From contig NZ_CP019724.1 of assembly GCF_002005225.1 (NCBI RefSeq), forward strand, positions 4,601,001-4,665,000: DNA of 64,000 nt, read 5' to 3'. Shown here piece after piece: positions 10,859-40,540 of this stretch. The notes below the pieces were generated by a model. It was not told the DNA's origin. It made no database searches and saw only the letters and a program-made list of their open reading frames with translations. The position numbers and the translations under genes are program-made. Within the stretch, counting starts at the first letter, position 1; the number at the start of each line of letters is the position of its first letter. The DNA is from Streptomyces pactum (GTDB lineage Bacteria > Actinomycetota > Actinomycetes > Streptomycetales > Streptomycetaceae).

Positions 10859-13084
<2,226 letters not shown>

Positions 13085-13209: not shown

Positions 13210-14745
13210 ATGACAGATGACGCCAAGGCGAGTGGGCTCTCGGACGAGGAACGGCTGGCCCAGCTCGGCTACACCCAGGTTCTGGCCCGCCGCATGTCGG
13301 CGTTCTCCAACTACGCGGTCTCCTTCACCATCATCTCGGTCCTCTCCGGCTGCCTGACCCTCTACCTGTTCGGCATGAACACGGGCGGTCCCGCCGTCAT
13401 CACGTGGGGCTGGGTCGCCGTCGGCCTGATGACCCTCTTCGTCGGCCTGGCGATGGCCGAGATCTGCTCGGCGTATCCGACGTCGGCGGGCCTGTACTTC
13501 TGGGCGCACCGCCTGGCACCGCCCCGTACGGCGGCGGCCTGGGCCTGGTTCACGGGCTGGTTCAACGTGCTGGGCCAGGTCGCGGTGACCGCCGGCATCG
13601 ACTTCGGCGCCGCGTCCTTCCTCGGCGCCTACCTGAACCTCCAGTTCGGCTTCGAGGTCACACCCGGCCGCACGATCCTCCTCTTCGCGGCCATCCTCGT
13701 CCTCCACGGCCTCCTCAACACCTTCGGCGTCCGCATCGTCGGCCTCCTGAACAGCGTCAGCGTCTGGTGGCACGTCATCGGCGTCGCGGTCATCGTCGGC
13801 GCGCTGACCTTCGCGCCCGACGACCACCGGTCGGCGTCCTTCGTGTTCGGCGAGTTCGTCAACAACACCGGCTGGGGCAGCGGCGTCTACGTCGTCCTCA
13901 TCGGCCTGCTGATGGCCCAGTACACCTTCACCGGCTACGACGCCTCCGCCCACATGACGGAGGAGACGCACGACGCGTCCACGGCCGGCCCGAAGGGCAT
14001 CGTCCGCTCCATCTGGACCTCCTGGATCGCCGGCTTCGTCCTCCTCCTCGGCTTCACCTTCGCCATCCAGTCCTACGAGGGCGCCCTCACCTCCCCGACC
14101 GGCGCGCCGCCGGCCCAGATCCTGCTCGACGCGCTGGGGGCGACCGCGGGCAAGCTGCTCCTGCTCGTCGTCATCGGGGCCCAGCTCTTCTGCGGAATGG
14201 CGTCGGTGACGGCCAACAGCCGCATGATCTACGCCTTCTCCCGCGACGGCGCGCTGCCCTACTCCCACATCTGGCACACGGTGCACGCGCGCACCCGCAC
14301 GCCGGTCGCGGCGGTCTGGCTGGCGGCACTGGCCGCGCTGCTCCTCGGCCTGCCCTACCTGATCAACGTCACGGCGTACGCGGCGGTGACCTCCATCGCC
14401 GTCATCGGCCTCTACATCGCGTACGTCATCCCGACCCTGCTGCGCGTCCGCAAGGGCGCCGCCTTCGAACGGGGGCCGTGGCATCTGGGCCGCTGGTCGC
14501 GGGCGGTGGGCGTGGTGGCGGTGACGTGGGTCGGCGTCATCACGGTCCTGTTCATGCTGCCGCAGGTCTCCCCGGTCACCTGGGAGACCTTCAACTACGC
14601 GCCGATCGCCGTCCTGGTCGTCCTCGGCTTCGCCGCGACCTGGTGGCTAGCCTCGGCCCGCCACTGGTTCCTCAACCCCGACCACGAACGCAACCGGGCC
14701 CGCGCGACGGCCCGCGCCGAGGCCCCCGAGCCGGTCGATCCGTAG
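13210..14745 (+). CDS. APC-superfamily amino acid permease
   Basis: The 511-residue protein has about twelve hydrophobic helices and the amino acid/choline transporter pattern. The first helix follows ARRMSAFSNYAVSFTIISVL, and the motif YPTSAGLYFW in the TM3 region marks the APC/ACT group that includes GABA, choline and amino acid permeases. It should import an amino acid or amine with a proton; the substrate cannot be read from the sequence. ATG 13210 has a GGGGG stretch just upstream. It stands alone, followed by tRNA-Lys. Confidence 0.88.
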   Translation: MTDDAKASGLSDEERLAQLGYTQVLARRMSAFSNYAVSFTIISVLSGCLTLYLFGMNTGGPAVITWGWVAVGLMTLFVGLAMAEICSAYPTSAGLYFWAHRLAPPRTAAAWAWFTGWFNVLGQVAVTAGIDFGAASFLGAYLNLQFGFEVTPGRTILLFAAILVLHGLLNTFGVRIVGLLNSVSVWWHVIGVAVIVGALTFAPDDHRSASFVFGEFVNNTGWGSGVYVVLIGLLMAQYTFTGYDASAHMTEETHDASTAGPKGIVRSIWTSWIAGFVLLLGFTFAIQSYEGALTSPTGAPPAQILLDALGATAGKLLLLVVIGAQLFCGMASVTANSRMIYAFSRDGALPYSHIWHTVHARTRTPVAAVWLAALAALLLGLPYLINVTAYAAVTSIAVIGLYIAYVIPTLLRVRKGAAFERGPWHLGRWSRAVGVVAVTWVGVITVLFMLPQVSPVTWETFNYAPIAVLVVLGFAATWWLASARHWFLNPDHERNRARATARAEAPEPVDP

Positions 14746-14865
14746 CCACCGCGGCCCAGGACACCGGCTCGACGCGGCCGGGACCCCGATACCCGATCGG
14801 CCTCCCGGCCGCGTCGGGCTATGCTCGGTGTGGCAACATCACGCAGCACCGGGCGACAGCCCCCT

Positions 14866-14938
14866 GGGCCCTTAGCTCAATTGGCAGAGCAGTGGACTTT
14901 TAATCCATTGGTTGTGGGTTCGAGTCCCACAGGGCCTA
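14866..14938 (+). tRNA. tRNA-Lys(UUU), integration target of the mobile element
   Basis: A 73-nt cloverleaf with D-arm TAGCTCAATTGGCA, anticodon loop CTTTTAA (TTT) and T-arm TGTGGGTTCGAGTCCCACA; the acceptor pairs GGGCCCT with AGGGCCT through a terminal G·U. The 3' half from 14894 is duplicated exactly at 40032–40077, so the gene is kept functional by the inserted element. Its original terminator now lies 25 kb away; a substitute hairpin follows at 14981. Confidence 0.96.
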
Positions 14939-14939
14939 C
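14894..14939 (+). repeat. attL core repeat
   Basis: The left copy of the 46-bp identity block starts GGACTTTTAATCC and ends CAGGGCCTAC; it runs from the anticodon region to one base past the tRNA-Lys 3' end. Flanking bases differ from attR on both sides. Confidence 0.93.
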
Positions 14940-14972
14940 TGGTTGTAGGCGGGGGATATACCCTCTGACCTG

Positions 14973-16610
14973 CTACGCAGCGTCCGGGTCGGCTTCGGTC
15001 GACTCGGGCGCTGACTCGTTTTCGAGCCATTGCGTGAGCGATGCGTGAGCGGATGTGGGCTTGGCCTGCGGATCGGCTGCCGTTTGGGCGGACGGTTCGG
15101 CAGCCGCCTGGCGGGACCGGGGGATCAGCTTCGCTGCCTTCTCGGCGATTTCGCGGTCCAGCTCAGGGAGCAGGCTCGTGTACGTGTCCGAGGTCAGCGT
15201 GATGGTGGAGTGCCGCAGCGTCTCCTTCACTGCGTGGATGTCGCCGCCGCCTCCGTGCGTGAGCGTCGCGGCGACGTGGCGTAGGTCCCGGAGGGTGATG
15301 GGCGGCAGGTCGGTCGTGGCGAGGATGCGGCGGAAGGTCTCGGAGACCGTCTCGGGGTGGAGCCAGGAGCCGTCCTCTTTGGTGAACACCTTGCCGGTGT
15401 CCTGCCAGGCGGTGTCCCACTTGGCGCGCTCCTTCTCCTGGCGGGCTTTGTGCTCGCGCAGTTCGGAGATGGTCGTGCTGTCGAGCGCGATCGTGTTCGC
15501 GCTGCCGTCCGTCTTGGGCTCGGACTCGTAGGGGTCCCAGCCGTCCACCACGATCTCCTTGGCGGGCGTGATGAGGCCGGCGTCGAGGTCGATCTCGTGC
15601 CAGTCCTGGCCGACCGCCTCACCGCGCCGGAGGCCGCGGGTGCCCATGAGGTGGAAGATCGCGTACAGGCGGTCGCCCTCGGCCGCGTCGAGGAAGGCGC
15701 CGAACTGCTGGGGCGTCCAGACCATCACCGGGCCGGGGATCTCGCCCGTCTCGCGCCAGCGTCGGACTCGCTTATCGGTCCAGAGAAGTGGCTTCGGGCG
15801 CTTGCCGGACTCCAATTCGACGTGGGACGCCGGGTTGAAGGTGATGAGCTGCTGGGCGATCGCTGAGTTCAGGGCCGCGCGCAGGGTGCGGCGGATCGCC
15901 TGCCGGGATGCCGGGCCGGTGATCTTCCGGAACGGCTTCATCTCCGCCAGCCTGGCCCGTTCGGCCGCGAGCAGCTTCCGCTCGGCTCCCACGGGTCGTC
16001 CGGGCTTGCTCGGCTTGCAGCGGGCGATCTGCTCGCGGCGGGCTTCGTTCTCGGCCGCGATGACCTCGTTGTCGTCGGCAATCCCGTCGAACATCTCCAC
16101 CAGGTGGCCGACGTTGAGGCGGTCGAGGCGTACGTGCCCGATGCGCGGCTTCAGGTGGACGCGGATGTGGGAGGCGTAGCCGTTGAGCGTGGTCTTGCGG
16201 CGCTTCTTCGCGGCGAACCACTGGTCGAGCCACTCGCCGACGGTGAGACTGCCACGGAGGGCCAGGCCCGCCCTGAGGCGGCGTCGGGTCTCCTCGATGG
16301 CGGGCAGCGGGGCCTTCTCTGCGGCGACCTCCTCCAGCAGGGCGACGAGGCGCTGGAGGCTGTCGGGGTCATCCTTGTCCGCCAGGGCGAGAAGAGCGCG
16401 GACGTGGTCGAGGTCGGCCTGAGCCGTCTTCAGGGAGTCGTAGCCGGCGCGGTTGAAGGAGCGGCGGGTGCCGTCTTCGCGGGGTGGGAGTTCCTGGCGT
16501 ATGGAGTACGAGCCGTGCTTGCGGCTGGAGAGTTTCGGGCACTTCTTGCCGAGCGGCTTGCCGGTGTGGGGGTCGCGGCAGTAGCAGCGGCGGTGGGTGG
16601 AACCCTTCAA
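14973..16610 (-). CDS. int: Tyrosine site-specific integrase of the element
   Basis: The 545-residue protein is a phage/ICE-type tyrosine recombinase. An N-terminal zinc-ribbon-like and SAM-like DNA-binding region precedes a core at about 120–260 and the catalytic domain at 300–490, with Arg328 (GLRRGEA), LRDLRH at 440–445 (canonical His replaced by Arg, Arg444 kept), His467 (ETLRHST) and nucleophile Tyr477 (SDTYTSLL). It catalyses integration into and excision from tRNA-Lys. The start is TTG 16610, overlapping the upstream regulator's TGA, with GGAGG seven bases before. Its 3' end also encodes a terminator-like hairpin and arm-site-like repeat. Confidence 0.95.
   Translation of the reverse strand: MKGSTHRRCYCRDPHTGKPLGKKCPKLSSRKHGSYSIRQELPPREDGTRRSFNRAGYDSLKTAQADLDHVRALLALADKDDPDSLQRLVALLEEVAAEKAPLPAIEETRRRLRAGLALRGSLTVGEWLDQWFAAKKRRKTTLNGYASHIRVHLKPRIGHVRLDRLNVGHLVEMFDGIADDNEVIAAENEARREQIARCKPSKPGRPVGAERKLLAAERARLAEMKPFRKITGPASRQAIRRTLRAALNSAIAQQLITFNPASHVELESGKRPKPLLWTDKRVRRWRETGEIPGPVMVWTPQQFGAFLDAAEGDRLYAIFHLMGTRGLRRGEAVGQDWHEIDLDAGLITPAKEIVVDGWDPYESEPKTDGSANTIALDSTTISELREHKARQEKERAKWDTAWQDTGKVFTKEDGSWLHPETVSETFRRILATTDLPPITLRDLRHVAATLTHGGGGDIHAVKETLRHSTITLTSDTYTSLLPELDREIAEKAAKLIPRSRQAAAEPSAQTAADPQAKPTSAHASLTQWLENESAPESTEADPDAA
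14981..15010 (+). terminator. Element-borne replacement terminator for tRNA-Lys, inside int
   Basis: A 13-bp stem capped by TTCG (CGTCCGGGTCGGC–TTCG–GTCGACTCGGGCG), closed throughout if G·U pairs are allowed, starts 43 bases after the tRNA-Lys 3' end and is followed by CTGACTCGTTTTC. On the other strand it encodes the last residues of the integrase. It is structurally equivalent to the chromosomal hairpin at 40084–40113, differing only by transitions. Confidence 0.75.
15031..15053 (+). repeat. Candidate integrase arm-type site, left copy
   Basis: A 23-bp block made of two tandem TGCGTGAGCG units recurs exactly at 39897–39919. It lies 91 bp right of the attL core, inside int. In the circular form the two blocks would flank attP as direct repeats, which is the usual layout of integrase arm sites. 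Binding is inferred. Confidence 0.6.
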
Positions 16611-25123: not shown

Positions 25124-27205
25124 TCATCGCCAGTCGACGACGATGCGGTTCAGCGGGGTGTCGAGGGCGAAGCGACCGGGGCGCTGCTCGATCTCGGGGG
25201 CGTCAAGGGGCTGGATCTCGAACGTGGCCTCACGGTCGCGGTAGTCGCGATCCCAGGTGCGGATGGCGTCGGCGACCCTCGCGACCAGTTCGTCACTGCC
25301 GGGGCCGTGGCCGATGACGCCGAACTCCCAGAGCTTGTCGCCCTCGGGGGTCTTCTCCTTCGACAGGCGCCGGGCGAGGTAGGTGACGGCGCCCTTGTCG
25401 ACGACTGCGGTCGACGAGGGGTAGGGGTCCTCGGTGAGCAGGGTGCCCTTGGCGCTCTGGGGGAACAGCATCCGGACAAGGCCGGAGGGGAGGGAGCAGG
25501 TGACAAACAGTTCCATCCACTCCGGTGACTCCATGGCGCGGACCGTCATGCCCGTCCACTCCTCGGTGCGCGGCTGGTCAAGCACGCCTGCGAGGGCATC
25601 TGCGTCGATGCTGAGCCCGGCGGGGGCCTGGAGTCGTACGGTGCCATCCGTGCTGAGCGGGATCACTCGGCGGTCGTCGTCGGCGATGCCCCGCCGAAGC
25701 GGCATGAAGGTGTTCATCTCACTGCCGAGGGACACCCACCGGCCGTCACGCTGCTCGTAGGCGATGGAGCGGGACACCGTGCCCTTGAGGCGTTGGGGCA
25801 CGAGGAGTCGGCCGCCGGGGGCGAGCTGCTGCAGCCAGGCGTGCGGTACGCCGTGCGCGCCGACGGTGGCGATGATCCGGTCGTACGGCGCTGTTTCGGC
25901 GTAGCCGAGTGCCCCGTCGCGGGTCACGGCCTCGGCGTTGGTGACTCCGGCGGCGGCGAGATGCGTGCGGGCGCCTTCCACGAGGTCGTCGTCGACGTCG
26001 AGGGTGGTCACGTGTCCGTTCTCGCCGACCAGGTGGGCGAGGAGACCGGCGTTGTATCCGGTGCCGGCGCCGAGTTCGAGGATGCGTTCGCCGGGCTGGG
26101 CTTCGAGCTGGTCCAGCATGAGGGCGACGACGCCGGGCTGGGAGGCGCAGGAGATGGACGTGCCGTCGGTGTCGTACTTGATGTGCACCGGTGCGTTGGC
26201 GTAGGCGTCTTCGAGTGACGCCTCGGGCACGAACACGTGGCGGGGCACGGTCCGCAGCGCGGTCTCGACGGCGGACGTGCGGGCGTGTCCGTCCGCGCGG
26301 AGCTGGTCGACCAGGGCGTTGCGGAGGCGCTCGGCGTCCGCCGTGGGGGTGGTGATCGTGTCGGTGTTCACCGCGCTGACGCTATCGATGTCGGCCGTTG
26401 CCTCGGTGGGCGATGCGGTGTGGTCACTCGTTCCCATGACTACCTCTCGTGCGATGTGGGACAGGGCGCTCTGGTCGTTCCGGAGGAGACCGGCGCGGTT
26501 GGCGTGGAAGATCACGTGGTGGGCGATGACGGCTCGCAGGCCGCGGGTGAGGGTGCCGCGGGCTGCGAGGTCGGCGAGCGTGGCGCCGGTCCGCTCGAAG
26601 GCGGTCACCCATTCCTTGTGCGCGTGGAGTGGGCTGCCCGGGTGGCAGAGGTTGTGGGCGTCGGCGGTCATGAGCTTGCGCATGGGCGGGGCCAGTTCGG
26701 CGGCTCGTTCGGGTGGTGGTGGATTGGTGGCTGGTCGAAGGGCTGCGACTTTCGCCCATACGTCGCCCTGTTCGAACCAGTCGAGTCCGGCGCCGCGCAT
26801 CAGGGCGCTCGCCAGCAGGACGGCGGTTTCCCGGCGTCCCAGGTGCATCGGGCTCGGCTGGTAGGTGAGCAGGTGGCGGGAGTCGCTGTGGAACAGTTCG
26901 TGGGCTGCGGCCATGGCCTCCGTGCCGCCGAACGCGTCGGTCTCGGGCTCGTAGACGCAGGGCAGGCACGACATGGCCACGCCGTCGTCGATGAGGTCGC
27001 TCAGGAGAGACTCGATGGCCGGGGAGGGCTTGTCCGCGAGGTAACGCAGCGGCCAGGGCTGCTTGTTCATGAACCACCAGCCGGTGAGCTGCCCGTCGGC
27101 CTCGGCCTCGATCAGAGCGGGGCCGAGGCGTTCGGCGATGGTGTGCCGGGCAGTCTCGCGGTCGCCGAAGGTGATGTTGTGCTGCTGCCAGCGGTCGGGA
27201 GGCAT
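25124..27205 (-). CDS. FxLD-system methyltransferase (thiopeptide-type domain + PIMT)
   Basis: The 693-residue protein joins two parts. Residues ~1–260 form a SpaB_C/thiopeptide-type biosynthesis domain (WWFMNKQPWPLRYLADKPSP), and ~300–690 a protein-L-isoaspartate O-methyltransferase domain with SAM motif GERILELGAGTGYNAGLL. This architecture defines the FxLD-system methyltransferase that accompanies FxLD lanthipeptides. It is expected to methylate an Asp of the modified core, leading to succinimide or isoaspartate; Asp44/Asp45 of the precursor are candidates. ATG 27205 lies 21 bp after lanC. Function is from family; the target residue is inference. Confidence 0.85.
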   Translation of the reverse strand: MPPDRWQQHNITFGDRETARHTIAERLGPALIEAEADGQLTGWWFMNKQPWPLRYLADKPSPAIESLLSDLIDDGVAMSCLPCVYEPETDAFGGTEAMAAAHELFHSDSRHLLTYQPSPMHLGRRETAVLLASALMRGAGLDWFEQGDVWAKVAALRPATNPPPPERAAELAPPMRKLMTADAHNLCHPGSPLHAHKEWVTAFERTGATLADLAARGTLTRGLRAVIAHHVIFHANRAGLLRNDQSALSHIAREVVMGTSDHTASPTEATADIDSVSAVNTDTITTPTADAERLRNALVDQLRADGHARTSAVETALRTVPRHVFVPEASLEDAYANAPVHIKYDTDGTSISCASQPGVVALMLDQLEAQPGERILELGAGTGYNAGLLAHLVGENGHVTTLDVDDDLVEGARTHLAAAGVTNAEAVTRDGALGYAETAPYDRIIATVGAHGVPHAWLQQLAPGGRLLVPQRLKGTVSRSIAYEQRDGRWVSLGSEMNTFMPLRRGIADDDRRVIPLSTDGTVRLQAPAGLSIDADALAGVLDQPRTEEWTGMTVRAMESPEWMELFVTCSLPSGLVRMLFPQSAKGTLLTEDPYPSSTAVVDKGAVTYLARRLSKEKTPEGDKLWEFGVIGHGPGSDELVARVADAIRTWDRDYRDREATFEIQPLDAPEIEQRPGRFALDTPLNRIVVDWR

Positions 27206-27226
27206 AGAGGTCCTTCGGTCGGTGGA

Positions 27227-28501
27227 TCAAGCGATGAGGAGGCATGCGTCCCAGGCGGACTGGGGTGGTGCGGCGGTGCTGGGCGCGAGGAGGGCCAGGG
27301 CTATGCCGGCGGCGCCGTCGAGGAGGCCGGGGCCGCCTTCCTTGTCCTGAATGAGCGCCGTGGCCATGAGTTCGGGGTCAGTGCTTGGTGGGATGACCGC
27401 AGCCAGGAGGGCCGGGATCGCGGCTCGGAGTTTGTCTGCGGTTGAGGGGTGGGCGTCGTCGGCCGTACGCGCAGCGGTGTGGGCGAGGCCGGCGGACCCG
27501 TGGCAGAGGCCGTTGTCCGTCGTGGCCTTCAGCTGCTCGGGATCGGTGAGGGCCGCCACGAGCGCGTTCTCCGCGTCGATCTGGCGGCTGGCGTCGCCGA
27601 GGGCCAGCGCGGCAAGTTGCTGCGCGCGAGCGAGGCCGGCGGTGCCGTAGCACCAGGACGGCCGCCGGGGCGCGGACGGCGCGAGACGCCCCCTGCGCAG
27701 CTCGCCTTGAGTGATCCAGTACGGCCAGTCCGGTCCGCCATCGGCCTTCTGTTTCCAGCGGTCCAGCCAGGCCAGGATGGTGCGTACTGCTGCATGGTGC
27801 CCGTCGGTGACGGAGCCGTTCCGAGCGGCGAGGGCCAGGAGCGCGAGCACGCCGCCGATGCCGTGTGCCATACCGGTGTTGGCGTGTCCGCCGGGGAATC
27901 GGTCGTCCGGGCTGCCCGAGGGCCCGGTCTCCGCCCACCAGCCCGGCAGGGTCTCGCCGTGATGGGTGATCGGTTCGGTGAGGCGCACGCAGTAGTCGAG
28001 GACGGCGCGCATCGTGGAGCTGCCGGGGTCTCGGCGCAGTAGGTAGGCGCCGTATCCGGTGAGGCCCCGGATGGTGTCGAACTCGGCGAGCTGCGGCAGG
28101 CGTCCGGCGTCGATGCGGCGGTGTGCGGTGTCGAGACGGCGTCCGACGTCGACTGCGATCTGCCTGTCCATCGCGTCGAGGGCGCGCTGGTAGGAGCCGG
28201 GGAGGTGGTCGGCGGCGCAGGTCAGGGCGTGGGCGAAGGCGGGCACTCCGTAGAACGGGTGGCTGTCCGGGCCGCTGGTGAGCGGCTGCCGGGAGGCGGC
28301 GGCGAGCCAGTCGTGGGCGCGGTACCACGGGCCGTGGCCGTTCGCGGCCAGCTCGATGTGCAGGAGCGCGATTCCGGGCGGGCCGTAAGCAAGGTGCTGC
28401 CGGTCCGAGGTCAGCGTCCTGGAGGCGAGGCGCACGGTGTCGGGGTCGGCGAGCCGGGCGGCGATGGCGTGGACCAAGCCGAGCGCGGGGTGGGCGGTCA
28501 C
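27227..28501 (-). CDS. lanC: Lanthionine synthetase C-like cyclase (LanC)
   Basis: The 424-residue protein carries LanC motifs: GLTGYGAYLL, the active-site MAHGIGGVLALLALA (His213), and zinc ligands in SWCYGTAGLA (Cys284) and NGLCHGSAGLAH (Cys333, His334). It should form thioether rings by adding Cys thiols to dehydrated Ser/Thr made by LanB. The GTG start at 28501 overlaps the lanB stop (GTGA) with GGGAGG six bases upstream, so lanB and lanC are translationally coupled. The full ligand set implies an active enzyme. Confidence 0.92.
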   Translation of the reverse strand: MTAHPALGLVHAIAARLADPDTVRLASRTLTSDRQHLAYGPPGIALLHIELAANGHGPWYRAHDWLAAASRQPLTSGPDSHPFYGVPAFAHALTCAADHLPGSYQRALDAMDRQIAVDVGRRLDTAHRRIDAGRLPQLAEFDTIRGLTGYGAYLLRRDPGSSTMRAVLDYCVRLTEPITHHGETLPGWWAETGPSGSPDDRFPGGHANTGMAHGIGGVLALLALAARNGSVTDGHHAAVRTILAWLDRWKQKADGGPDWPYWITQGELRRGRLAPSAPRRPSWCYGTAGLARAQQLAALALGDASRQIDAENALVAALTDPEQLKATTDNGLCHGSAGLAHTAARTADDAHPSTADKLRAAIPALLAAVIPPSTDPELMATALIQDKEGGPGLLDGAAGIALALLAPSTAAPPQSAWDACLLIA

Positions 28502-31500
28502 GAGGCCCTCCCACGGGTGCGGGCGGTCCAGGCCAGGGCGGCGGCGCGCGCCAAGTAGAGGCACACCTCTTCCTCCGGGAAGTTCACTGCGACGTGGCGC
28601 ACGAAGTGGACGTGGAGCAGGGAGGTCAGGACGTCGTCGACGGCGATGCCCTCGGTGTCCGGGCCAGGCAAGTGCGGCCGGTACGTGGTGAGCGCCGTAT
28701 CCCGGTCAGCCCATCCCGACACGATGGCGTCCCCGCCCGGGACATGGCGCATCGCCGCCCAGTTGTCGGACGGGTCGGCGAGCCGTACGGCGGCGGTGAA
28801 CTGCGGGCGCGGAACGGGAGCGGGGGTTTTCGGAGGGACGTGGTCGATCAGCCACCGCATCCCGGCTGCGGTGCTGCCGAGGAACGCGGAGGCGATGGCG
28901 ACGGTGTGGGCCGCCATCAGCGTGCGCTGACCGGGGCGCTGTGGCTGCGCGAGCTGGGCCAGGATGGCGCGCGAGTCCGCCCGGAAGACCTCCTCGGCCG
29001 CCTCCCAGGCGGTGCCGGAGCCCCAGCGGCCCATCTCCCGGTAGGAGGTGGGATAGCGCAGGTCAGCCAGCAGGCCGATGCTTCGTACCTCGTCGGCCCA
29101 AGCGCTCACCGTTCGGGCCGTGCCAGCAAAGGCTTCCGGGTCGGGGAGGGCGATGCGTACGCGGAGGTGCTGGTCCGGGTCGCGGAAGCGGATGAACCAC
29201 CATGGCGGGTTACCGAGTTGTTCGAGAAGGCCGGGCAAGTGCCGGGATAGCAAGACGTCTTGGCGGCGGGGGTCGCAGTACAGGGCGGCCAGAAGAACTG
29301 AGGACGCGGCAGGCGTCTGCATCTGGGTCGCCGACAGGACGCGGGCCCGGCTCGGGGTGGGCAGAGGCGGCCACGTCGGCGGTCGGGTCGCCTTGAGGGG
29401 AACTACGATCTCGTGGGCTCGCCCGCCGCACCAGCCGTACGCCTCTGGTTCCGGGGCTTCGACCAGCACAGTCAGGCGCGTGCGGTCGAGGTGTCTGCGC
29501 AGGAGCGCACGGTGGCCGGCCTCGTCGAGGTCGAGGAAGAGGCGCCGGTCATCCTCAACGAGGTAAACGCGGCGCGGCAGCCTCCGCCGGGCGCGCCAGG
29601 CAGCGAACGCGGCGTCCCACTCGACCAGAGAGCGGGCATGGCAGGGCAGTTCGGAGGCTTCCAGCCGCCACCGCGCCGGGGTCAGCACGATGCGGCCGTA
29701 CCGCAGACGCGGAAGGAACGGCATCGCCGCGGCGGCGCCCCAGTCGAAGACAGTGACCTGCGCGCACTGGGCGCGGGACAGTTCGGTGAGGAACCGCACC
29801 AGCGGCGGGGTGTGGGTGTGGAGGTTCAGCGCGTGCATCCCAATGGCCTCAACGCGGTGGCCTCGCTCGGGGACGGCGAGGTACATACGGCGGCCGTCGC
29901 ACCCCACCGCCAAGTCCTCCGAGGTGAGGACGGTGTCCTGCGGGGCACGGTGCTCCTGAAGGCTGATCACGGTGGGCAGGACCTGTGGGGAGCGGGTGAC
30001 GTGGGCGCTCTCGGGGAGCAGGGGCGGGAAGGAGAGCTGCGCGGGCATGGTGTTGCCGTCTGCGGCCGGGAGGTCAGCAAGCTCGGCGACCAGGGCCTCC
30101 CGGTCAGCAAGGGCCAGCACACTGAGGAATCGGCCCGTGGAGACGCCGGCGCCACGGGACACGCTCATGACCTCCAGCCGGAACCGCCCGCGCTGCAACT
30201 CCTCCAGGCTGGCCGCATGCACTCGCACCCCGATCTCCAGGTGCGGCGGCAGCCGAGGCTCGTCGGGCCCTACGTCCAGAGCCTCAATCTGTTGATCCGT
30301 GAGGATCACTTCGTCACGGCCGTCGAGCACAGCGGCCTGAGCCAGCCCTACGAGGGCGTCATCCCGAGCGGAGACACGGGGCCTGCGTGCGCCGGCCGGA
30401 GCGCCTGGGTAGCCGTCGGGATAGCCAGTGCCGCTGTCCGCGACGACCTCCGCGAGCGGCACCATCGTGCCGATGCCGTACCGCTCGTAGAACCGCTGGT
30501 GGTACTCGTTCCACGCGGCGGTCCCGTACGGGCGGATGCTCAAGTGGGTCAGGATGAGAGCGGCGCGCTCGATCTCTCGGGCGACCGTTTCCGGCAGAAC
30601 GATCTGCGCGTCGAGGCGGAGGTCGAGCGCGAGGGGGTGGCGACGCAGGCCGGGGGCGAGGTCTCGCATCTGCGCCGCGACTCTGTCCCGGCCGCCGTGC
30701 GTAGTGCACTTCTCCAAACCCGCCCGGATCGCGTGGAGTTCGCGTACGGTCTCCGCGACCGGGGCCAGGCTCCCGGCGTCGATCGCGTCGAGTTGGCCCA
30801 CCAGATACCCGAGGGCGTCGGTCTCGGTGCTCGGAGCGTGCAGGCCCGTGATCAGCACCCGCCGCCGGATCAGCTCCGCCAGCAGGTGACGCGCCTTCTC
30901 GGGACCGGCCTCAGGGAACTCCGCCTGGAGCTTGTCCACGAGGGTGCCGAACCGGATCGGCGCCCGGGTCCCGGCAAGGACTGCGCGCACCGGTCCGGTC
31001 AGGGCCAGAGACGCCTCGACCGCGCGAGTCCGGTCGTCTTGGACGTCGGGCTGGAACGGCACGATGAGCCGGTCTCCCCGGTACGTCACGGTGTTGTTGG
31101 CGACGACGGGCAGCCGTTCGAGGAGGTCCGGGCATGACTCCAACCACGCGACTACGGCAGCCAGCCACTCTGCCCCCGCGCGGCCGACGGCCACGTGTTC
31201 CTCGCCCCAGCCGGCCCGCGCCTGCGGGCCGAACTCCGCGGTGGCCACGCCGGCGAACAGGCCGAAGGGCGTGGCCCGGTGCTGGGCCCGCAGCAGGTAG
31301 CGGGCTACGGACAGCGCCGCGCGCTGCACATCGCGGCGGGCGGGATGCTCGGCCGTGCACAGGGCCCGTACCTGCGCGGCCAGGACCGGGCTGGAGTGCT
31401 GGAGTGCCTCGGCGACGTCCTTGTTCGCCCAGACCGCGCGTAGCCACGCCACAAGGGCGGACGAACCACTGGGCGAGCGGTCATCGAGGTCAGGGCATGG

Positions 31501-31581
31501 AGGAAATGGCAGCGAGGGCCGGGCCACGGCGCGCACGAGAGCAGTGGAACCGGTGCGGAACGCTGCGGGCGGAGCAACCAC
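28498..31581 (-). CDS. lanB: Full-length class I lanthipeptide dehydratase (LanB)
   Basis: The 1027-residue protein has the large N-terminal glutamylation domain and the C-terminal SpaB_C elimination domain (from ~750; NPPWWFIRFRDPDQHLRVRI). It would dehydrate Ser/Thr of the precursor using Glu-tRNA. I take GTG 31581, which has GGAGG six bases upstream; the longer reading frame would run back through the precursor gene in another frame. It follows the precursor by 89 bp containing a hairpin. It overlaps lanC by four bases. Confidence 0.9.
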   Translation of the reverse strand: MVAPPAAFRTGSTALVRAVARPSLPFPPCPDLDDRSPSGSSALVAWLRAVWANKDVAEALQHSSPVLAAQVRALCTAEHPARRDVQRAALSVARYLLRAQHRATPFGLFAGVATAEFGPQARAGWGEEHVAVGRAGAEWLAAVVAWLESCPDLLERLPVVANNTVTYRGDRLIVPFQPDVQDDRTRAVEASLALTGPVRAVLAGTRAPIRFGTLVDKLQAEFPEAGPEKARHLLAELIRRRVLITGLHAPSTETDALGYLVGQLDAIDAGSLAPVAETVRELHAIRAGLEKCTTHGGRDRVAAQMRDLAPGLRRHPLALDLRLDAQIVLPETVAREIERAALILTHLSIRPYGTAAWNEYHQRFYERYGIGTMVPLAEVVADSGTGYPDGYPGAPAGARRPRVSARDDALVGLAQAAVLDGRDEVILTDQQIEALDVGPDEPRLPPHLEIGVRVHAASLEELQRGRFRLEVMSVSRGAGVSTGRFLSVLALADREALVAELADLPAADGNTMPAQLSFPPLLPESAHVTRSPQVLPTVISLQEHRAPQDTVLTSEDLAVGCDGRRMYLAVPERGHRVEAIGMHALNLHTHTPPLVRFLTELSRAQCAQVTVFDWGAAAAMPFLPRLRYGRIVLTPARWRLEASELPCHARSLVEWDAAFAAWRARRRLPRRVYLVEDDRRLFLDLDEAGHRALLRRHLDRTRLTVLVEAPEPEAYGWCGGRAHEIVVPLKATRPPTWPPLPTPSRARVLSATQMQTPAASSVLLAALYCDPRRQDVLLSRHLPGLLEQLGNPPWWFIRFRDPDQHLRVRIALPDPEAFAGTARTVSAWADEVRSIGLLADLRYPTSYREMGRWGSGTAWEAAEEVFRADSRAILAQLAQPQRPGQRTLMAAHTVAIASAFLGSTAAGMRWLIDHVPPKTPAPVPRPQFTAAVRLADPSDNWAAMRHVPGGDAIVSGWADRDTALTTYRPHLPGPDTEGIAVDDVLTSLLHVHFVRHVAVNFPEEEVCLYLARAAALAWTARTRGRAS

Positions 31582-31615
31582 CAAGTACCTCCGTAGGCGA
31601 GGGGGCCGGGCGGCT

Positions 31616-31645
31616 GGTGCCGTCGCGTGGAGACGCGGCGGCACC
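31616..31645 (-). terminator. Hairpin between precursor and lanB (attenuator)
   Basis: A 13-bp stem with one G·U pair (GGTGCCGTCGCGT / ACGCGGCGGCACC) and a GGAG loop sits between the precursor stop and the lanB start. Partial terminators in this position commonly let RiPP clusters make more precursor than enzyme. No T-run is present. Confidence 0.65.
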
Positions 31646-31670
31646 AGACTGGGGTGATCTGGGGGCCGGG

Positions 31671-31850
31671 TCAGGCGACGTTGGTGGTGCAGGCGCCGCA
31701 GGTGGACCCGCAGTTGTCGTCGGTCAGGTTGACCAGGCCCGCCGGGTCGGCGATCTCGACGAGGGATACGTCCAGGTCGAAGCCGTCCGATGCCCCAGGG
31801 ATCTGCGGGCGTACTTCGGTGCGGCTGGGAACTACGGTGCTGCGCGTCAT
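31671..31850 (-). CDS. lanA: FxLD-family class I lanthipeptide precursor
   Basis: The 59-residue peptide starts at ATG 31850 with GGAG-type RBS (AAGAGGAGTTGAAGC upstream). Its leader has the defining FDLD motif at 24–27, followed by DVSLVEIADPAGLV. The C-terminal core has Cys47, Cys51 and Cys54 and dehydratable Thr43, Ser49, Thr50, Thr55 and Thr56, ending TTNVA. The Asp44-Asp45-Asn46 run is a plausible target of the PIMT methyltransferase. It is the first gene of the lanB–lanC–methyltransferase operon. The gene is easily missed because a longer frame overlaps it. Confidence 0.93.
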   Translation of the reverse strand: MTRSTVVPSRTEVRPQIPGASDGFDLDVSLVEIADPAGLVNLTDDNCGSTCGACTTNVA

Positions 31851-32039
31851 GCTTCAACTCCTCTTAATCGTTGGGGTGTTACTGGGCTGGAGCGCCCACC
31901 AGGTGCCGCTGAGGGAGCGTTGCCACTCGGCTGCTCCCCGGACGGCTCCTGGCCGCCCGGCATGTGGGGACGTGCTCCGCGTAGGAAGTCCTCGCGGGGC
32001 GCCTGACTCAGGCCGGGAAGTCATGTACCGGGAGTCTGA

Positions 32040-35015: not shown

Positions 35016-35099
35016 GTCAGCACCCGGCGCTATCGTTGAAGCACTCAGCTCAAGGGGCACCGTTCGTGATGCTGTCACGCAGTGAAGGGGGAAAGGCTC

Positions 35100-38000
35100 A
35101 TGAGTCCTAGGCCAGGGGGTGAGGCTGACAAATTTGGTAACCGCTATGAAGGCGCCTGGACGATTCGACACGTTCTCTACGTGCTTCTTGGTACGGGTCA
35201 TTCTGTAACGGTCGAGGACATCGATGAGCTGGGCCTGGGAGCCGAGTTCACCTATCGCCACGGCGACACCGTAGAAGTCCATCAGTTGAAGCGGCAGAAC
35301 GGCAGCGCAAACACCTGGACGGTCAAATCTCTCCAAGACAAAGGGATTTGGGAGAACGTTCGCTCGCACGTCGAAGATGGACGTCAGTTCCGCTTCGTTT
35401 CCCTATTGCCTGCCAGTCCCCTTCAAGAGCTTGCCGATCGCGCAAGGCGCTCAGGAAACCATGATGATTTCATCAAGCATTGGCTAACGAAAGGGCTCAG
35501 GGACCCATTCGACGACCTTTCATCTTCCGAAATCTTTGAATCTTCGGAGATAGCATGGAAAATCTTGCGAGGCTTTTCGATCTCATGGCCAGATGAGCAA
35601 GACATTGTGAGCATGAACGGAGCATTGGCACAACTCCTTTTGGAAGGTGCAGCCGGAAGTCTAGCGGCAGTTGGTCTAGGGGACTTGATTCAGAATTCCC
35701 TTGGTGTCACGCTTGATGCCCCGGCAATTGATTCTCGCCTGGGCACTTATGGACTGAGTCGGTCCCGACTGCTTAACGCGAGTGGGATTGCTGAACAGGT
35801 TAGCTCGGTTTCTAAGGGGTGGGCATCGAATATTGAGCGAGAGCTCCTTCAACCGACTATTGATCGCTCCGAGGCCGACCAGCTAGTAGGGCTAATCAAT
35901 GGGTCGAATAAACTTCTTCTATTGATGGGGCATGGTGGCGGCGGAAAGAGTGCCGCGCTTCATCACGTCTACGAATCTCTTGACGCGGATTCGGTGCCAC
36001 TTCTAGCTTTCCGGCTTGATCGTCTCGAGCCCTTCTCCTCTACGACTGAGCTAGGGGAAAGGATTGGCGTAGGTGTTTCTCCTGTCACGGCACTTGCTGC
36101 AGTTGCTGGAGAGCGCTCCAGTGTTCTCATCGTGGACCAGTTGGACGCCGTTAGTCTGACATCAGGGAGAATGCCGAGGAACTTTGATGCCGTTGCGAGT
36201 TTGGTGCGCGAAGCGTCAGCATTTCCTGCAATGACGGTCGTTCTCGCTTGTCGGAAATTTGATGTCGAGAACGACTACCGGATCCGCGAACTTGCAGATG
36301 CCAAGAATTGCGCGCATGTCGAGGTCGGGGAGCTTTCCGACGCGCAAGTCACAGAGTCGGTTCGTGCAATGGGATTGGATGCGAACGCGCTAGCTGACCA
36401 CCAAAAGACGCTACTGCGCTCTCCGCTGAACCTTGTTCTGTTGAAGAGTATCGCCGGCGACGAAGACGCCATGGCATTTCAAACCACGAAAAATCTCTTC
36501 GACGCCTTCTGGCAACGCAAGCTGACCGACTGTCGCCAGAGGCGTGATTCAGTTCGCTTTAACAAGGTTATCTCGACTCTTGCTGAGGCCATCAGTGCGA
36601 GGCAGCGGCTCTCTGTCCCGATTACTGCTCTTGATGCCGATGATCTGGCTGATGATGCGGGAGTCCTTGTCTCGGAGCATGTTCTCGTTCGCGATGGTCA
36701 GCAGATCGCATTCTTTCATGAGAGCTTCTTCGACTACGCCTTTGCTCGTGGCTGGATCGAGCGCGATGAGTCACTCGTATCGTTCCTGCTGGGAGGAGAG
36801 CAAGAACTCTTCCGGCGGGCGCAAGTTCGTCAAGTTATGAACCATCTTCGAGAACTCGAGCCAGACCGCTTCGCTGTCGAGACGGAGGCCCTACTTACGA
36901 GTCCCGACATCAGGTACCACATCAAAGATGTGGTCCTTAAACTTCTCGGATCTCTGTCTGACCCAACATCCCGTGAATGGGAGATGGTGACCAACGTCCA
37001 AGAGACACACCCAGCCTTCGAGGCACGACTGTGGCGAATCCTCCAGACAGCACCGTGGTTTGAGCGTCTCGATGCGGAGGGTGTCATCGAAGAGTGGCTT
37101 GACGGGGAAGACGAAACAGAGCAGGGACGAGCCATCGAAGTGATGGCAGGGGCTGCGAAATCAAGCCCTGATCGTCTTGCTGAGATCCTTCAGAGGTACA
37201 AGGCTGTAGCCGAATACCCGCAGTGGCTACGATGGGTAACTCGGTTCTCTGATATCCATCAGAGTCGCCCTCTATTTGATTTGCTCCTCGACGCCGTGAG
37301 GAGCGGGCAATATGTGGGAATGGAGGATGAAGTCTGGCTTTCTGCTCATGATCTCGGTAAGCAGCGGCCCGATTGGGTGGTCGAACTGTTGGCCGCACAC
37401 CTCGTGGACCGGCCTAGTGCCATGGCCGTAGATGACAAAGGGAAGATCGAGACCCTACTTGACCGAGATTACTCGGTAATCCAACTAACGCAACTCGCGG
37501 CAGCGGGAGCACCAGAGCTTTTCTGTGAACGTCTCATCCCGTACATGTTGGGAGTAATGGCTAAGACAGCCTACGAGCACGATGACAGCCGCCCTCATAG
37601 GGATCGGCATTTCTCCCACCGCCACCCACGAACCAACATTCGTGAACTTGAAGATGCACTTCTAGCAGGGGCTGCTACAGCGCTTCGCGGGATCGTTGAA
37701 AGGGACGCCGCATCGGCTCGTCCAGTCCTCGAAAGCCTCGCGTTTGATCCTCACGACACAGCGCAGTGGCTCCTCTATGAGGCATTGCGGGCGGCAGGTA
37801 GTCACTACGCAGATTGGGCAGCCGAGCTTCTACTTCAGGGGACCCACCGGTTTATTAGTGGCTACTATGCGGCAAATGCTGTATGGAAAACGCGGGAACT
37901 CATCCAGAGCACGAGTCAGTTCATGCCTGATGAGGCATTCGCCAGTATTGAAGCTGCGATTCTCGAAGTTCGTTTTCCATGGGAGTCCAAGCCTACGGGC

Positions 38001-39551
38001 TGGTACCCGTTTAATCTGCTTTCAGCGATGCAAGAAGATCGGCTATCTGAGCTAGGGCGCCGTCGACTCGGCGAACTACGCAGGAAGTTTGATTCCGATC
38101 AGCCGGCAGAGCCTCAGGGCGTAACGGGAGGCGCGATCGGCGCTCCCATTAATCAGGCTGCCGCCGGACGCATGAGCGATGAACAGTGGCTGGGTGCCAT
38201 AGCAAAACATAACTCAGAGAGAACCGACTGGCGGACTCACACCGGTGGCGCTTACGAGCAATCACATGTCCTACAGGAGCAAACGAAGAGCGATCCTGAG
38301 AGATTCTCTCGGCTAGCTCTTCGATTTGATGAAAGCGTCCATGCTGCTTACGGTGATGCAATCCTCATGGGACTAGGCAACGCCGATGCCCTTGCTGACC
38401 CTGCGCCGGTGTTTGAAGCCGTCCGACACATCGCTTCCCTCGGACACGAGGCAAACAATCGGTGGCTGGGATCTGCCATCCGAAAGTATCTCAAGACAGT
38501 TCCTCAAGATATCGTTCAGCTTATTATTGACCGCGCGACCGGTGCTAGTGACCCAGTTGATGGCAGCTTGACTGTCCAAACCGCCAATCAAGAGCACACT
38601 CAGGGACGAGACCTGTATACGTCGGGGATTAATTCTTCGCGAGGAAGTGCGGCAGAGATTCTGGGTGACCTCCTTATCTACGACGCGGATGGCTCTCGAA
38701 CAGCGTTGGTTCTCCCAGTGCTCGATGCAATGGCCGAGGATCCTGCTGTCACCGTACGCTCTTGTGTCGCGCATGTGATTCATGCCTCTATGCGTCACGC
38801 TCGTCCTCAGGCGTTGCAAGCATTCGCTCGCCTCATTAATGCAGACGATGAACTTCTGGCTACACATGCTGTAGTGCGGCTTATGGCTCACATTGGCTTT
38901 GAGGACCTTGACGTAGTGAAGCCTGTGATTGAACGCATGCTTCAATCGGAGAGATACGAGACGCGACAGTGTGGCGGGCAATTGGCTGCTCTGGCTGCGA
39001 TGCATTGGAGCTTGGTAGAGATGTTGGACTCGGTGCTCTCAGGCGAAGACGTAGCCAGCCGTATTGGAGCTGCCGGGGCTTGTGCTCACGGGCTGTCTAA
39101 TGCGACCGATACCGCCGTTGCTCAGCGAGCCTTCGAGCAATTTATCGATGACCCTGAAGACAAAGTACGCGGTGCTATTGCTGAATTTGCATCGGTAGTT
39201 CGCGGTCAACGCCTACGTCCCCTGAAGGTCTCTCTCAAAGCACTAATTCATTCTGCCTCTTTCGAGGAGGCTCTACCGCAACTGCTAATTACTCTTGAGC
39301 ACGCCTCTGACCGCGTCGACGACTTGGCGTTGGAGTGCGGTCGTCGATTCGTTGAGATCCATGGAGAGGGCTCGGGAGACATTCGGAATCGCGCAGCAGC
39401 AGACGCACGGCATGTTGGTGAGCTACTAGTTCGGGCGTACGCGCAAGCTACATCGACTACAAGCCGCGGGCAGGTTCTTGATCTACTGGATCAACTTCTG
39501 CTTATCGGGGCCTTTGGTGTGGCGGACTTGGTAGAAAAGTCTGAGCGATAG
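35100..39551 (+). CDS. Predicted nuclease–STAND NTPase–helical repeat protein (candidate anti-phage sensor)
   Basis: The 1483-residue product (ATG 35100; GGGGGA and AAAGG upstream) has three parts. Residues 1–120 look like a DUF4297/Cap4 or Mrr-type nuclease: RYEGAWTIRHVLYVLL followed by DTVEVHQLKRQ, with Gln62-x-Lys64 as the Q-x-K variant of the PD-(D/E)XK core. Residues ~250–560 are a P-loop NTPase with Walker A GHGGGGKS (277–284) and Walker B SVLIVDQLDA (341–350). The remaining ~900 residues are helical repeats. This is the architecture of Avs-type STAND defence proteins: repeats sense a phage protein and the nuclease is activated. The gene is far AT-richer than its surroundings. The defence role is inference. 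Confidence 0.72.
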   Translation: MSPRPGGEADKFGNRYEGAWTIRHVLYVLLGTGHSVTVEDIDELGLGAEFTYRHGDTVEVHQLKRQNGSANTWTVKSLQDKGIWENVRSHVEDGRQFRFVSLLPASPLQELADRARRSGNHDDFIKHWLTKGLRDPFDDLSSSEIFESSEIAWKILRGFSISWPDEQDIVSMNGALAQLLLEGAAGSLAAVGLGDLIQNSLGVTLDAPAIDSRLGTYGLSRSRLLNASGIAEQVSSVSKGWASNIERELLQPTIDRSEADQLVGLINGSNKLLLLMGHGGGGKSAALHHVYESLDADSVPLLAFRLDRLEPFSSTTELGERIGVGVSPVTALAAVAGERSSVLIVDQLDAVSLTSGRMPRNFDAVASLVREASAFPAMTVVLACRKFDVENDYRIRELADAKNCAHVEVGELSDAQVTESVRAMGLDANALADHQKTLLRSPLNLVLLKSIAGDEDAMAFQTTKNLFDAFWQRKLTDCRQRRDSVRFNKVISTLAEAISARQRLSVPITALDADDLADDAGVLVSEHVLVRDGQQIAFFHESFFDYAFARGWIERDESLVSFLLGGEQELFRRAQVRQVMNHLRELEPDRFAVETEALLTSPDIRYHIKDVVLKLLGSLSDPTSREWEMVTNVQETHPAFEARLWRILQTAPWFERLDAEGVIEEWLDGEDETEQGRAIEVMAGAAKSSPDRLAEILQRYKAVAEYPQWLRWVTRFSDIHQSRPLFDLLLDAVRSGQYVGMEDEVWLSAHDLGKQRPDWVVELLAAHLVDRPSAMAVDDKGKIETLLDRDYSVIQLTQLAAAGAPELFCERLIPYMLGVMAKTAYEHDDSRPHRDRHFSHRHPRTNIRELEDALLAGAATALRGIVERDAASARPVLESLAFDPHDTAQWLLYEALRAAGSHYADWAAELLLQGTHRFISGYYAANAVWKTRELIQSTSQFMPDEAFASIEAAILEVRFPWESKPTGWYPFNLLSAMQEDRLSELGRRRLGELRRKFDSDQPAEPQGVTGGAIGAPINQAAAGRMSDEQWLGAIAKHNSERTDWRTHTGGAYEQSHVLQEQTKSDPERFSRLALRFDESVHAAYGDAILMGLGNADALADPAPVFEAVRHIASLGHEANNRWLGSAIRKYLKTVPQDIVQLIIDRATGASDPVDGSLTVQTANQEHTQGRDLYTSGINSSRGSAAEILGDLLIYDADGSRTALVLPVLDAMAEDPAVTVRSCVAHVIHASMRHARPQALQAFARLINADDELLATHAVVRLMAHIGFEDLDVVKPVIERMLQSERYETRQCGGQLAALAAMHWSLVEMLDSVLSGEDVASRIGAAGACAHGLSNATDTAVAQRAFEQFIDDPEDKVRGAIAEFASVVRGQRLRPLKVSLKALIHSASFEEALPQLLITLEHASDRVDDLALECGRRFVEIHGEGSGDIRNRAAADARHVGELLVRAYAQATSTTSRGQVLDLLDQLLLIGAFGVADLVEKSER

Positions 39552-39896: not shown

Positions 39897-39919
39897 TGCG
39901 TGAGCGATGCGTGAGCGGA
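39897..39919 (+). repeat. Candidate integrase arm-type site, right copy
   Basis: An exact copy of the 23-bp block at 15031–15053 (two tandem TGCGTGAGCG units), located 112 bp left of the attR core and outside any gene. Its conservation in non-coding DNA argues that the sequence is kept for binding rather than for protein coding. Confidence 0.6.
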
Positions 39920-39981
39920 CGGTGTGGCACAACCCGCCGCGCGGCGGATCGGCACTCACGGCGCACATGCTCTGACCAGGC

Positions 39982-40012
39982 GGTTCCGGACACCGAACCA
40001 GCGTCCGGAACC
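39982..40012. repeat. Perfect inverted repeat beside attR
   Basis: GGTTCCGGAC and GTCCGGAACC are separated by 11 bases and end 19 bp before the attR core. It could be an integrase/excisionase site or a hairpin; nothing equivalent is seen at the left end. The rest of 39552–40031 has no convincing gene. Confidence 0.5.
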
Positions 40013-40031
40013 ACCCAACAGGCTTTGGCCA

Positions 40032-40077
40032 GGACTTTTAATCCATTGGTTGTGGGTTCGAGTCCCACAGGGCCTAC
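40032..40077 (+). repeat. attR core repeat
   Basis: The right copy of the 46-bp tRNA-Lys 3' sequence, identical to 14894–14939. No 5' half of a tRNA precedes it, so it marks the right junction of the element with the chromosome. Confidence 0.93.
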
Positions 40078-40083
40078 CGACGG

Positions 40084-40113
40084 CGCTCGGGTCGGCTTCG
40101 GCCGGTCCGGGCG
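40084..40113 (+). terminator. Original chromosomal tRNA-Lys terminator, now displaced
   Basis: A 13-bp stem with G·U pairs and a TTCG loop (CGCTCGGGTCGGC–TTCG–GCCGGTCCGGGCG), six bases past the attR core, followed by CCGACTCGTTT. In the uninterrupted chromosome it would directly follow tRNA-Lys. Compare the element's copy at 14981–15010. Confidence 0.75.
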
Positions 40114-40150
40114 CCGACTCGTTTCCGGGCAGGCGGGCGCGCGGGTGGGG

Positions 40151-40540
40151 TCAGCCCCGGTCGCCGTTGAGCCACGCGAGCAGGCGGGCGCGCTCCTTGT
40201 AGGAGCAAGGAGTGTGGACGGCGCCGGACGTGACGTAGGTTCCGGACCCGCCCCGCAGGTCGTACCCGTAGTCGCTGGGGCCGTACTCGCCGTCGCGGTA
40301 GCCGTCCATGTCGTCGGCCCAGTCGAGGAGACCGAAGTCGAACCCGAGGCCGAGATTCTCGAGGTACCGGGCGGGGTCGGCCGGTTCCACCGGCGCGGGA
40401 CGAGCGGCCGCCCCGGCGGCGAGCCGGTCTTCGAGGCAGCCGTCGGAGCGCACGGGCTGGCCCAGCCACCACCCGGCCAGGAACACGGCGTACAGAGCTG
40501 TGGCGGCGCCGAGGCGGCGCGGGGTTGTCCAGGCAGGCAT
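40151..40540 (-). CDS. Small membrane-anchored hypothetical protein, paralogue 1
   Basis: The 129-residue protein starts with a basic segment and one hydrophobic helix (TPRRLGAATALYAVFLAGWW), followed by LGQPVRSDGC and a soluble acidic domain with a second Cys (HTPCSYKERARLLAWL) that could disulfide-bond outside the cell. It is clearly related to the next gene upstream at 40607, with the same helix and GQPV turn and the same tail motif RLxAW. Start ATG 40540 lacks a strong RBS. Function unknown. Confidence 0.7.
   Translation of the reverse strand: MPAWTTPRRLGAATALYAVFLAGWWLGQPVRSDGCLEDRLAAGAAARPAPVEPADPARYLENLGLGFDFGLLDWADDMDGYRDGEYGPSDYGYDLRGGSGTYVTSGAVHTPCSYKERARLLAWLNGDRG

Follow-up and report, generated by a model that had tools for sequence, protein, structure and literature searches.

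Attachment sites of the tRNA-Lys element

We analysed a stretch of 64,000 nucleotides from Streptomyces pactum (contig NZ_CP019724.1), which is referred to below as the window. It contains an element of about 25 kb that is bounded by two 46-bp cores. The features at the two ends of the element are as follows.

14866..14939, + strand: tRNA-Lys(UUU) gene (ARAGORN; Rfam RF00005, 74 bits), the 3′ part of which comes from the element
14894..14939, + strand: attL core, 46 bp, identical to 40032–40077 and ending at the tRNA 3′ end
14942..14976, + strand: spacer hairpin, the first and weaker one in the fold of the 91-nt flank, containing the conserved TCTGACCTGC and the int stop codon
14973..16610, − strand: int, tyrosine recombinase of 545 aa with a predicted start (Pfam PF00589, E 6e-11; PF14659)
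14978..15013, + strand: left hairpin, candidate replacement terminator, with a 16-bp stem and a TTCG loop; its minus strand forms the last int codons
15019..15022, + strand: short T-run (UUUU) after the left hairpin, from the terminator scan and the 56-flank alignment
15032..15053, + strand: probable arm-type repeat (putative arm site) inside the int codons, with an exact copy at 39898–39919 where none is expected
39898..39919, + strand: right-hand copy of the arm-type repeat, an exact match to 15032–15053
40032..40077, + strand: attR core, a tRNA-Lys fragment of 46 bp identical to the attL core
40081..40116, + strand: right hairpin, the displaced chromosomal tRNA-Lys hairpin, with a 16-bp stem and a TTCG loop, beyond attR

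A tRNA gene was called at attL only and attR holds a fragment, i.e., the cores are direct repeats in the tRNA 3′ end. The minus-strand int, whose stop codon is at 14973–14975, converges on tRNA-Lys, and its PF00589 match is above the cut-off and adjoins the att site, as in tyrosine-integrase elements at tRNA 3′ ends. The core does not reach this stop codon, so integration should leave the Int protein as it is. The element also encodes a relaxase (PF03432) and MobC (PF05713), both above their cut-offs, as in an IME; the name TraB, a translocase that together with a replication protein marks actinomycete ICEs (AICEs), was absent among the selected element proteins scanned. A BLAST search of the 8.55-Mb genome itself with a 109-nt attR query gave four matches. 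Three were attR itself, the tRNA core, and the left hairpin, and the fourth was weak and lay at a tRNA-Met gene. This search with the attR flank gave no second tRNA-Lys(UUU) match, which indicates that no further copy of this gene is visible.

The right end of the element carries an inverted repeat of its own (39982–40012), which may act as a second insulator hairpin or bind a protein. At 8 of 20 partial-core loci, the window among them, it was called 21–24 nt ahead of the core pattern, and matching changes on both arms were seen by eye in loci L056 and L073.

Properties of the two hairpins

The first-pass annotation had reported two 30-base hairpins, at 14981–15010 and 40084–40113. Both were recovered at these coordinates, fully paired (13 of 13) around a TTCG loop, and their stems extend to 16 bp. 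As had been noted, the two 30-mers differ (at 6 of 30 positions) by transitions alone, and none of these breaks a pair on the plus strand, where Watson-Crick or G·U pairing is retained throughout. The left copy is indeed the end of the int reading frame on the minus strand, lying within the last 13 codons of the 545-aa open reading frame. The proposal that the two hairpins occupy matching places held in that a hairpin follows the tRNA at both ends; it starts 38 nt past the tRNA at attL and 3 nt past it at attR, so the places match only roughly. Both hairpins lie outside the block of identity, since the att core ends exactly at the tRNA end.

The left 30-mer folds with −23.0 kcal/mol on the plus strand and −10.3 kcal/mol on the minus strand, and the corresponding values for the right 30-mer are −22.2 and −14.8 kcal/mol. 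In both hairpins the minus strand turns the G·U pairs of the stem into A·C mismatches. The left 56-nt stretch with the 16-bp stem reaches −35.9 kcal/mol, the stable GC-rich stem-loop expected of an intrinsic terminator. The 91-nt left flank folds with −53.5 kcal/mol in the tRNA sense (z −6.84, better than every shuffle) and with −32.2 kcal/mol in the antisense (z −2.23).

The left hairpin was recovered by the attR-flank query of the same genome with 81% identity over 48 nt (E 5e-6), and its likeness to the attR hairpin is not due to chance. Copying within the genome was considered as its origin and rejected. The two hairpins of the window are alike at 40 of 50 positions, and far hairpins of other genomes (see below) reach 43 of 50 to the attR hairpin. 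The two are thus not each other's closest relatives among the flanks examined, and a recent capture from the element's own chromosome is unsupported.

Hairpins in the 3′ flanks of tRNA-Lys

For comparison, 59 relatives of int were found in GTDB contigs. A search of 392 genomes with the attR flank matched 359 of them, and its loci were used together with 100 further regions, among the matches listed. The 164 core hits gave 155 distinct tRNA-Lys 3′ flanks, again among the matches listed. A strong hairpin was present in 143 of the 154 scorable flanks and missing from 11. Among 770 shuffles 6 had one, as did 2 of the 153 control stretches taken 400–525 nt further on.

The flanks were divided into a far class (n = 100), whose best hairpin starts at nt 27 or later (mostly about 36–40), and a near class (n = 55). 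The fold in the tRNA sense was the more stable one in 87 of 92 far hairpins, and strand bias was weaker among the near hairpins (42 of 54). Chromosomal marker genes adjoin flanks of both classes, which suggests a turnover of terminators at the tRNA-Lys site. Hairpins stand close after an intact tRNA-Lys in L064–L068, L070, and L071. A second class of near hairpin, GCCCCAG-TCAGA-N-TCTGA-CTGGGGC, starts 3–8 nt after the tRNA (L105, L119, L131, L144, L156, L165, and others) and has TCTGA in common with the spacer of the window's element type. The ORF ends beside ten near flanks had, by eye, no integrase look. One tabulation of the hairpins left out 42 with odd loops.

Covariation and strand specificity

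We aligned 56 of the 100 far flanks, namely those with the spacer motif and at least one arm-like GTGAGC, by MAFFT from the sequence alone, and the structure was imposed later. No near hairpin was found in flanks with the spacer motif and an arm-like repeat. The first-pass annotation had named an absent or unpaired hairpin in sister elements as the outcome that would speak against it; all 56 flanks possess a strong hairpin, the lowest score being 33. In the alignment 95.5% of the stem cells are paired, 13 of 16 pairs have two-sided changes, and none of 500 shuffles was as high. Sliding the partners reduced the pairing to 26–45%, and RNAalifold recovered 15 of the 16 stem pairs unaided. When the same substitutions were re-placed on a FastTree tree (54 of the 56 rows), the observed pairing of 95.6% compared with a mean of 71.7% and was reached in none of 300 replicates. 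Antisense pairing was also above this null (77.8% vs 58.1%, 1 of 300) and lower than the sense pairing.

The stem of the 56 flanks contains 163 G·U cells and 3 A·C cells. This ratio indicates selection on the tRNA-sense RNA, rather than on DNA symmetry or on the int mRNA; it is a clean mark, at the sequence level, of selection within a gene on RNA of one direction only. With two-sided compensatory changes and pairing specific to the tRNA sense across 56 flanks, the earlier suggestion that RNA structure is under selection gains support.

Overlap of the hairpin with int codons

A strict test asked that the best int match continue in frame as far as a stop at nt 34–36, and 14 of the 56 flanks passed it. 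Eleven of these match the entire 105-residue int tail, and three (L059, L078, and L130) match little beyond the last 40–54 residues; some of the 14 are 5′-truncated int copies. A looser test, for an int-like tail open through the hairpin, was passed by 18 of the 56, weak ones included (L053, L055, and L089). In all 14 strict flanks the tRNA-sense fold is the more stable one (mean −31.7 vs −17.3 kcal/mol). When codons were shuffled synonymously with the amino acids fixed, the observed pairing was reached in 5–34 of 1000 shuffles for each of the 14, and the fold z-scores of the single sequences were modest (mean −1.8 in the sense and −0.4 in the antisense). Twelve of these flanks have GTGAGC copies downstream of the tRNA, at offsets 94 and 105.

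In regards to the other 38 flanks, which have no int read-through, the hairpin is kept with 95.6% pairing, 104 G·U cells against 0 A·C cells, and two-sided changes at 13 of 16 pairs. Two-sided change was seen at 1 of 16 pairs in the strict 14 alone and at 4 of 16 in the looser 18, i.e., most of the covariation comes from flanks without int read-through. The pairing results hold under either split. Furthermore, in twelve flanks an int match of 84–96% identity stops 0.7–2.5 kb from the tRNA, with the hairpin and at least one arm-like repeat still at the tRNA, and matches to integrases of 81–97% identity end at residue 491–524, before the int tail. About 1.7–2.6 kb of other DNA lies between the int match and the att end in the sister elements L005, L006, L010, L012, L016, L019, L024, L025, and L047, where hairpin and arm-like repeats are at the tRNA.

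Read-through in only 14–18 of 56 flanks and a hairpin kept elsewhere indicate that the hairpin belongs to the end of the element and not to int. The idea that the 3′ codons of int double as a candidate tRNA-Lys terminator applies to the window and in 14–18 of the flanks; in 38 flanks the hairpin comes without int codons. The spacing of tRNA, hairpin, and arm repeats is nearly constant, which also fits a DNA-level att geometry.

Terminator scan and spacer hairpin

A generic terminator scan of 14700–15200 called one site, the left hairpin on the plus strand, and shuffles averaged 0.2 sites. The U-run after the stem, ACTCGTTTTC, is short and passes a loose terminator scan, as an intrinsic terminator should. 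The same generic scan of 39900–40300 did not call the attR hairpin, whose T-run is poorer.

The spacer alone gave a mean fold z of −1.8 over the 56 flanks, with 26 of 56 at p ≤ 0.05. In its hairpin the 3′ arm TCTGACCTGC is nearly invariant and the 5′ arm varies, and support for its pairing is moderate; it is perhaps a protein site and an RNA structure both.

Other tRNA targets and other integrases of Streptomyces

Relatives of the same integrase family at tRNA-Arg(CCU) carry a different hairpin at nt ~52–78. The int stop lies at 46–48 in 29 of 51 distinct flanks of this type, so the hairpin is within int codons there too. Its strand bias is small: the sense fold was more stable in 44 of 48, with means of −22.3 and −19.2 kcal/mol. 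The hairpin is almost palindromic, and the codon test was equally strong on both strands, which makes selection at the RNA level less secure for this type. The tRNA-Arg pattern missed 27 of 80 loci; ARAGORN found a tRNA, either tRNA-Arg(CCU) or tRNA-Thr(UGU), in 15 of these, and 12 stayed unread. Such a hairpin, scoring at least 25, is present in all 15 rescued loci, five of which have the int stop at 45–47. The GGCC-rich Arg-type hairpin was also seen after tRNA-Thr(UGU) (L226, L234, L235, L237–L239, L241, L247, and L248). With the int stop at 45–47 in L226, L247, and L248, a third tRNA seems to share the overlap. In each of the three tRNA-Thr(CGU) relatives examined, a hairpin whose sides are A- and T-rich lies at nt 3–39, ahead of the int stop. 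The genome of the window itself has another att end (G000:C1:5006758-5006911, L207); it belongs to the Arg(CCU) type, carries the GGCC-rich hairpin, and has only a partial int match near its tRNA.

We also sampled 70 PF00589 integrase loci of Streptomyces. Forty were chosen by hand from the listed matches, and some of the 70 may belong to the same family. Among neighbouring tRNA and int genes, 32 of 35 pairs converge. Four of the 32 are further tRNAs of one array, and the 28 nearest pairs were scored. A strong hairpin in the tRNA flank was found in 21 of the 28, before the int stop in 20 and in int codons in one (L299); seven had none. One of the three co-directional pairs had a hairpin. Since a hairpin between tRNA and convergent int is common in this sample (21 of 28), the unusual part is the overlap with codons. 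At other tRNAs, hairpins preceded by an A-run and followed by a T-run were seen in L038, L039, L278, L279, L293, L306, L327, and L330; this is as expected of two-way terminators between a convergent tRNA and int.

Proposed function and alternative explanations

The reading that we favour, with a probability of roughly 0.84, is that the element displaces the terminator of tRNA-Lys and brings a substitute terminator hairpin at its left end, which in this lineage lies inside the int codons. Integration into the 3′ part of tRNA-Lys(UUU) would separate the gene from its own terminator hairpin, now about 25 kb away. Just outside the att core, the left end of the element would supply a compensating hairpin and a short U-run that end the tRNA-Lys transcript. 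The last ~26 codons of the converging int would run through the hairpin and the arm-type repeats, and some 114 bp after the tRNA would thus hold arm-type repeats, a tRNA-sense terminator, and the C-terminal codons of int. Because many stem pairs are G·U, the structure should be stable in the tRNA-sense RNA and much weaker in the int mRNA, so that int can be read through. The hairpin, its overlap with int, its conservation, its compensatory changes, and its strand bias are observed, and from the sequences we infer that RNA polymerase stops at the left hairpin. Such a stop would protect the formation of the tRNA-Lys 3′ end and keep antisense transcription out of int and attL.

The same position would suit a signal in the tRNA trailer, for 3′ processing or RNA stability, in place of a polymerase stop. 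Two tandem hairpins directly after the tRNA and the shortness of the U-run point that way; hairpin and U-run nevertheless pass the terminator pattern, and in other elements the A-/T-run hairpins lie at the corresponding position, ahead of the int stop. We regard a trailer signal as unlikely. An inverted repeat serving as a DNA site in attP, for Int or excisionase binding or for the spacing of core and arm, is in our judgement very unlikely. It would account for a hairpin placed between core and arm repeats at nearly constant spacing, for the inverted repeat kept at the right end in relatives, and for the near palindrome of the Arg type with its equal codon bias on both strands. However, 163 G·U against 3 A·C cells would be unexpected for a DNA palindrome, and the stem sequence changes while the pairing holds. 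In L064, L066, and L070, moreover, the tRNA-Lys ahead of the hairpin is intact, a chromosomal marker gene lies downstream, and the sequence that was read contains no int match.

It is barely credible that GC-rich codons, or conserved amino acids at the C-terminus of Int, produced the structure incidentally. Hairpins form easily in a GC-rich genome, and among 36 other int blocks one or more gave an unusually stable fold in that sense (z −3.5). Against this stand the shuffle controls (the hairpin counts of the flanks and the 91-nt fold), the covariation, which is strongest without int read-through (13 of 16 pairs in 38 flanks), and the integrases of 81–97% identity whose matches end at residue 491–524, before the tail.

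If a substitute terminator is what the element carries, the entire tRNA transcription unit, terminator included, appears to be restored, with the terminator in protein-coding DNA of the opposite strand. The att arm at tRNA-Lys, tRNA-Arg(CCU), and probably tRNA-Thr(UGU) would then consist of Int codons, arm sites, and terminator at once, and in the Lys lineage this triple-purpose arm would be one-directional and tuned by G·U pairs. The orientation of int would predict whether the tRNA terminator is replaced or its loss is exploited, as in ICEKp1, and some host tRNA terminators may be relics of past elements. We give about even odds to a general rule of this kind, in which elements with a convergent int bring their own tRNA terminator and host terminators swap with element ends, together with the triple-purpose arm and the prediction from int orientation.

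Relation to known systems

The closest published case that we found is ICEKp1 at tRNA-Asn. There (PMC13023037, NAR 2026), the displaced tRNA terminator stays unreplaced beyond the far end, the tRNA promoter drives the co-directional int, and stem-loops in the int 5′-UTR only attenuate. In both elements, insertion at the tRNA 3′ end displaces the tRNA terminator and the fate of tRNA transcription matters for int. Unlike in ICEKp1, where int runs in the direction of the tRNA, int converges here and the element brings a hairpin inside int codons. Promoter capture of the ICEKp1 type does not match this locus, where int converges and a terminator-like hairpin adjoins the tRNA.

Phage Mx8 has its attP within intP. 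The attachment region of KplE1 overlaps the intS promoter (PMC2951348). The att sequences of KplE1 and of the present element alike share DNA with int, in the int promoter in the former and in the int 3′ codons in the latter. In islands that target tRNA and tmRNA genes, DNA of the element restores the 3′ part of the split gene (Islander, PMC4383910). The element resembles such islands in restoring the tRNA 3′ part, and differs in also supplying a non-identical, separately evolving hairpin outside the att core. Stem-loop terminators of Streptomyces may have or lack a U-run, and stem-loop transcript 3′ ends lacking U are reported in S. clavuligerus (PMC8269248). The left hairpin is likewise a stem-loop; unlike those Streptomyces terminators, it runs antisense to the coding sequence of a convergent gene and is carried by a mobile element.

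The word "terminator" is absent from the main texts of two surveys of Streptomyces and actinobacterial elements (PMC9513070 and PMC3218068). The first-pass annotation knew of no description of terminator restoration within int, and searches of open-licence PMC papers likewise showed no earlier one; older att-site work on SLP1, pSAM2, P4, and HP1 lies mostly outside that literature. Restoration of split tRNA genes by elements is already known.

Other features in the window

A protein of 1489 aa (35082–39551) partially matches the PADLOC candidate defence model PDC-M54A (E 2e-19) and had no Pfam match at 0.001. The region 25124–31857 contains FxLD-type RiPP genes, including a methyltransferase (TIGR04364), a thiopeptide-type protein (TIGR03891), and a weak LanC-like match. 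Upstream of the element, a DEAD-box helicase-like gene has, by eye, a repetitive C-terminal region rich in RGG/DRR (12445–12906).
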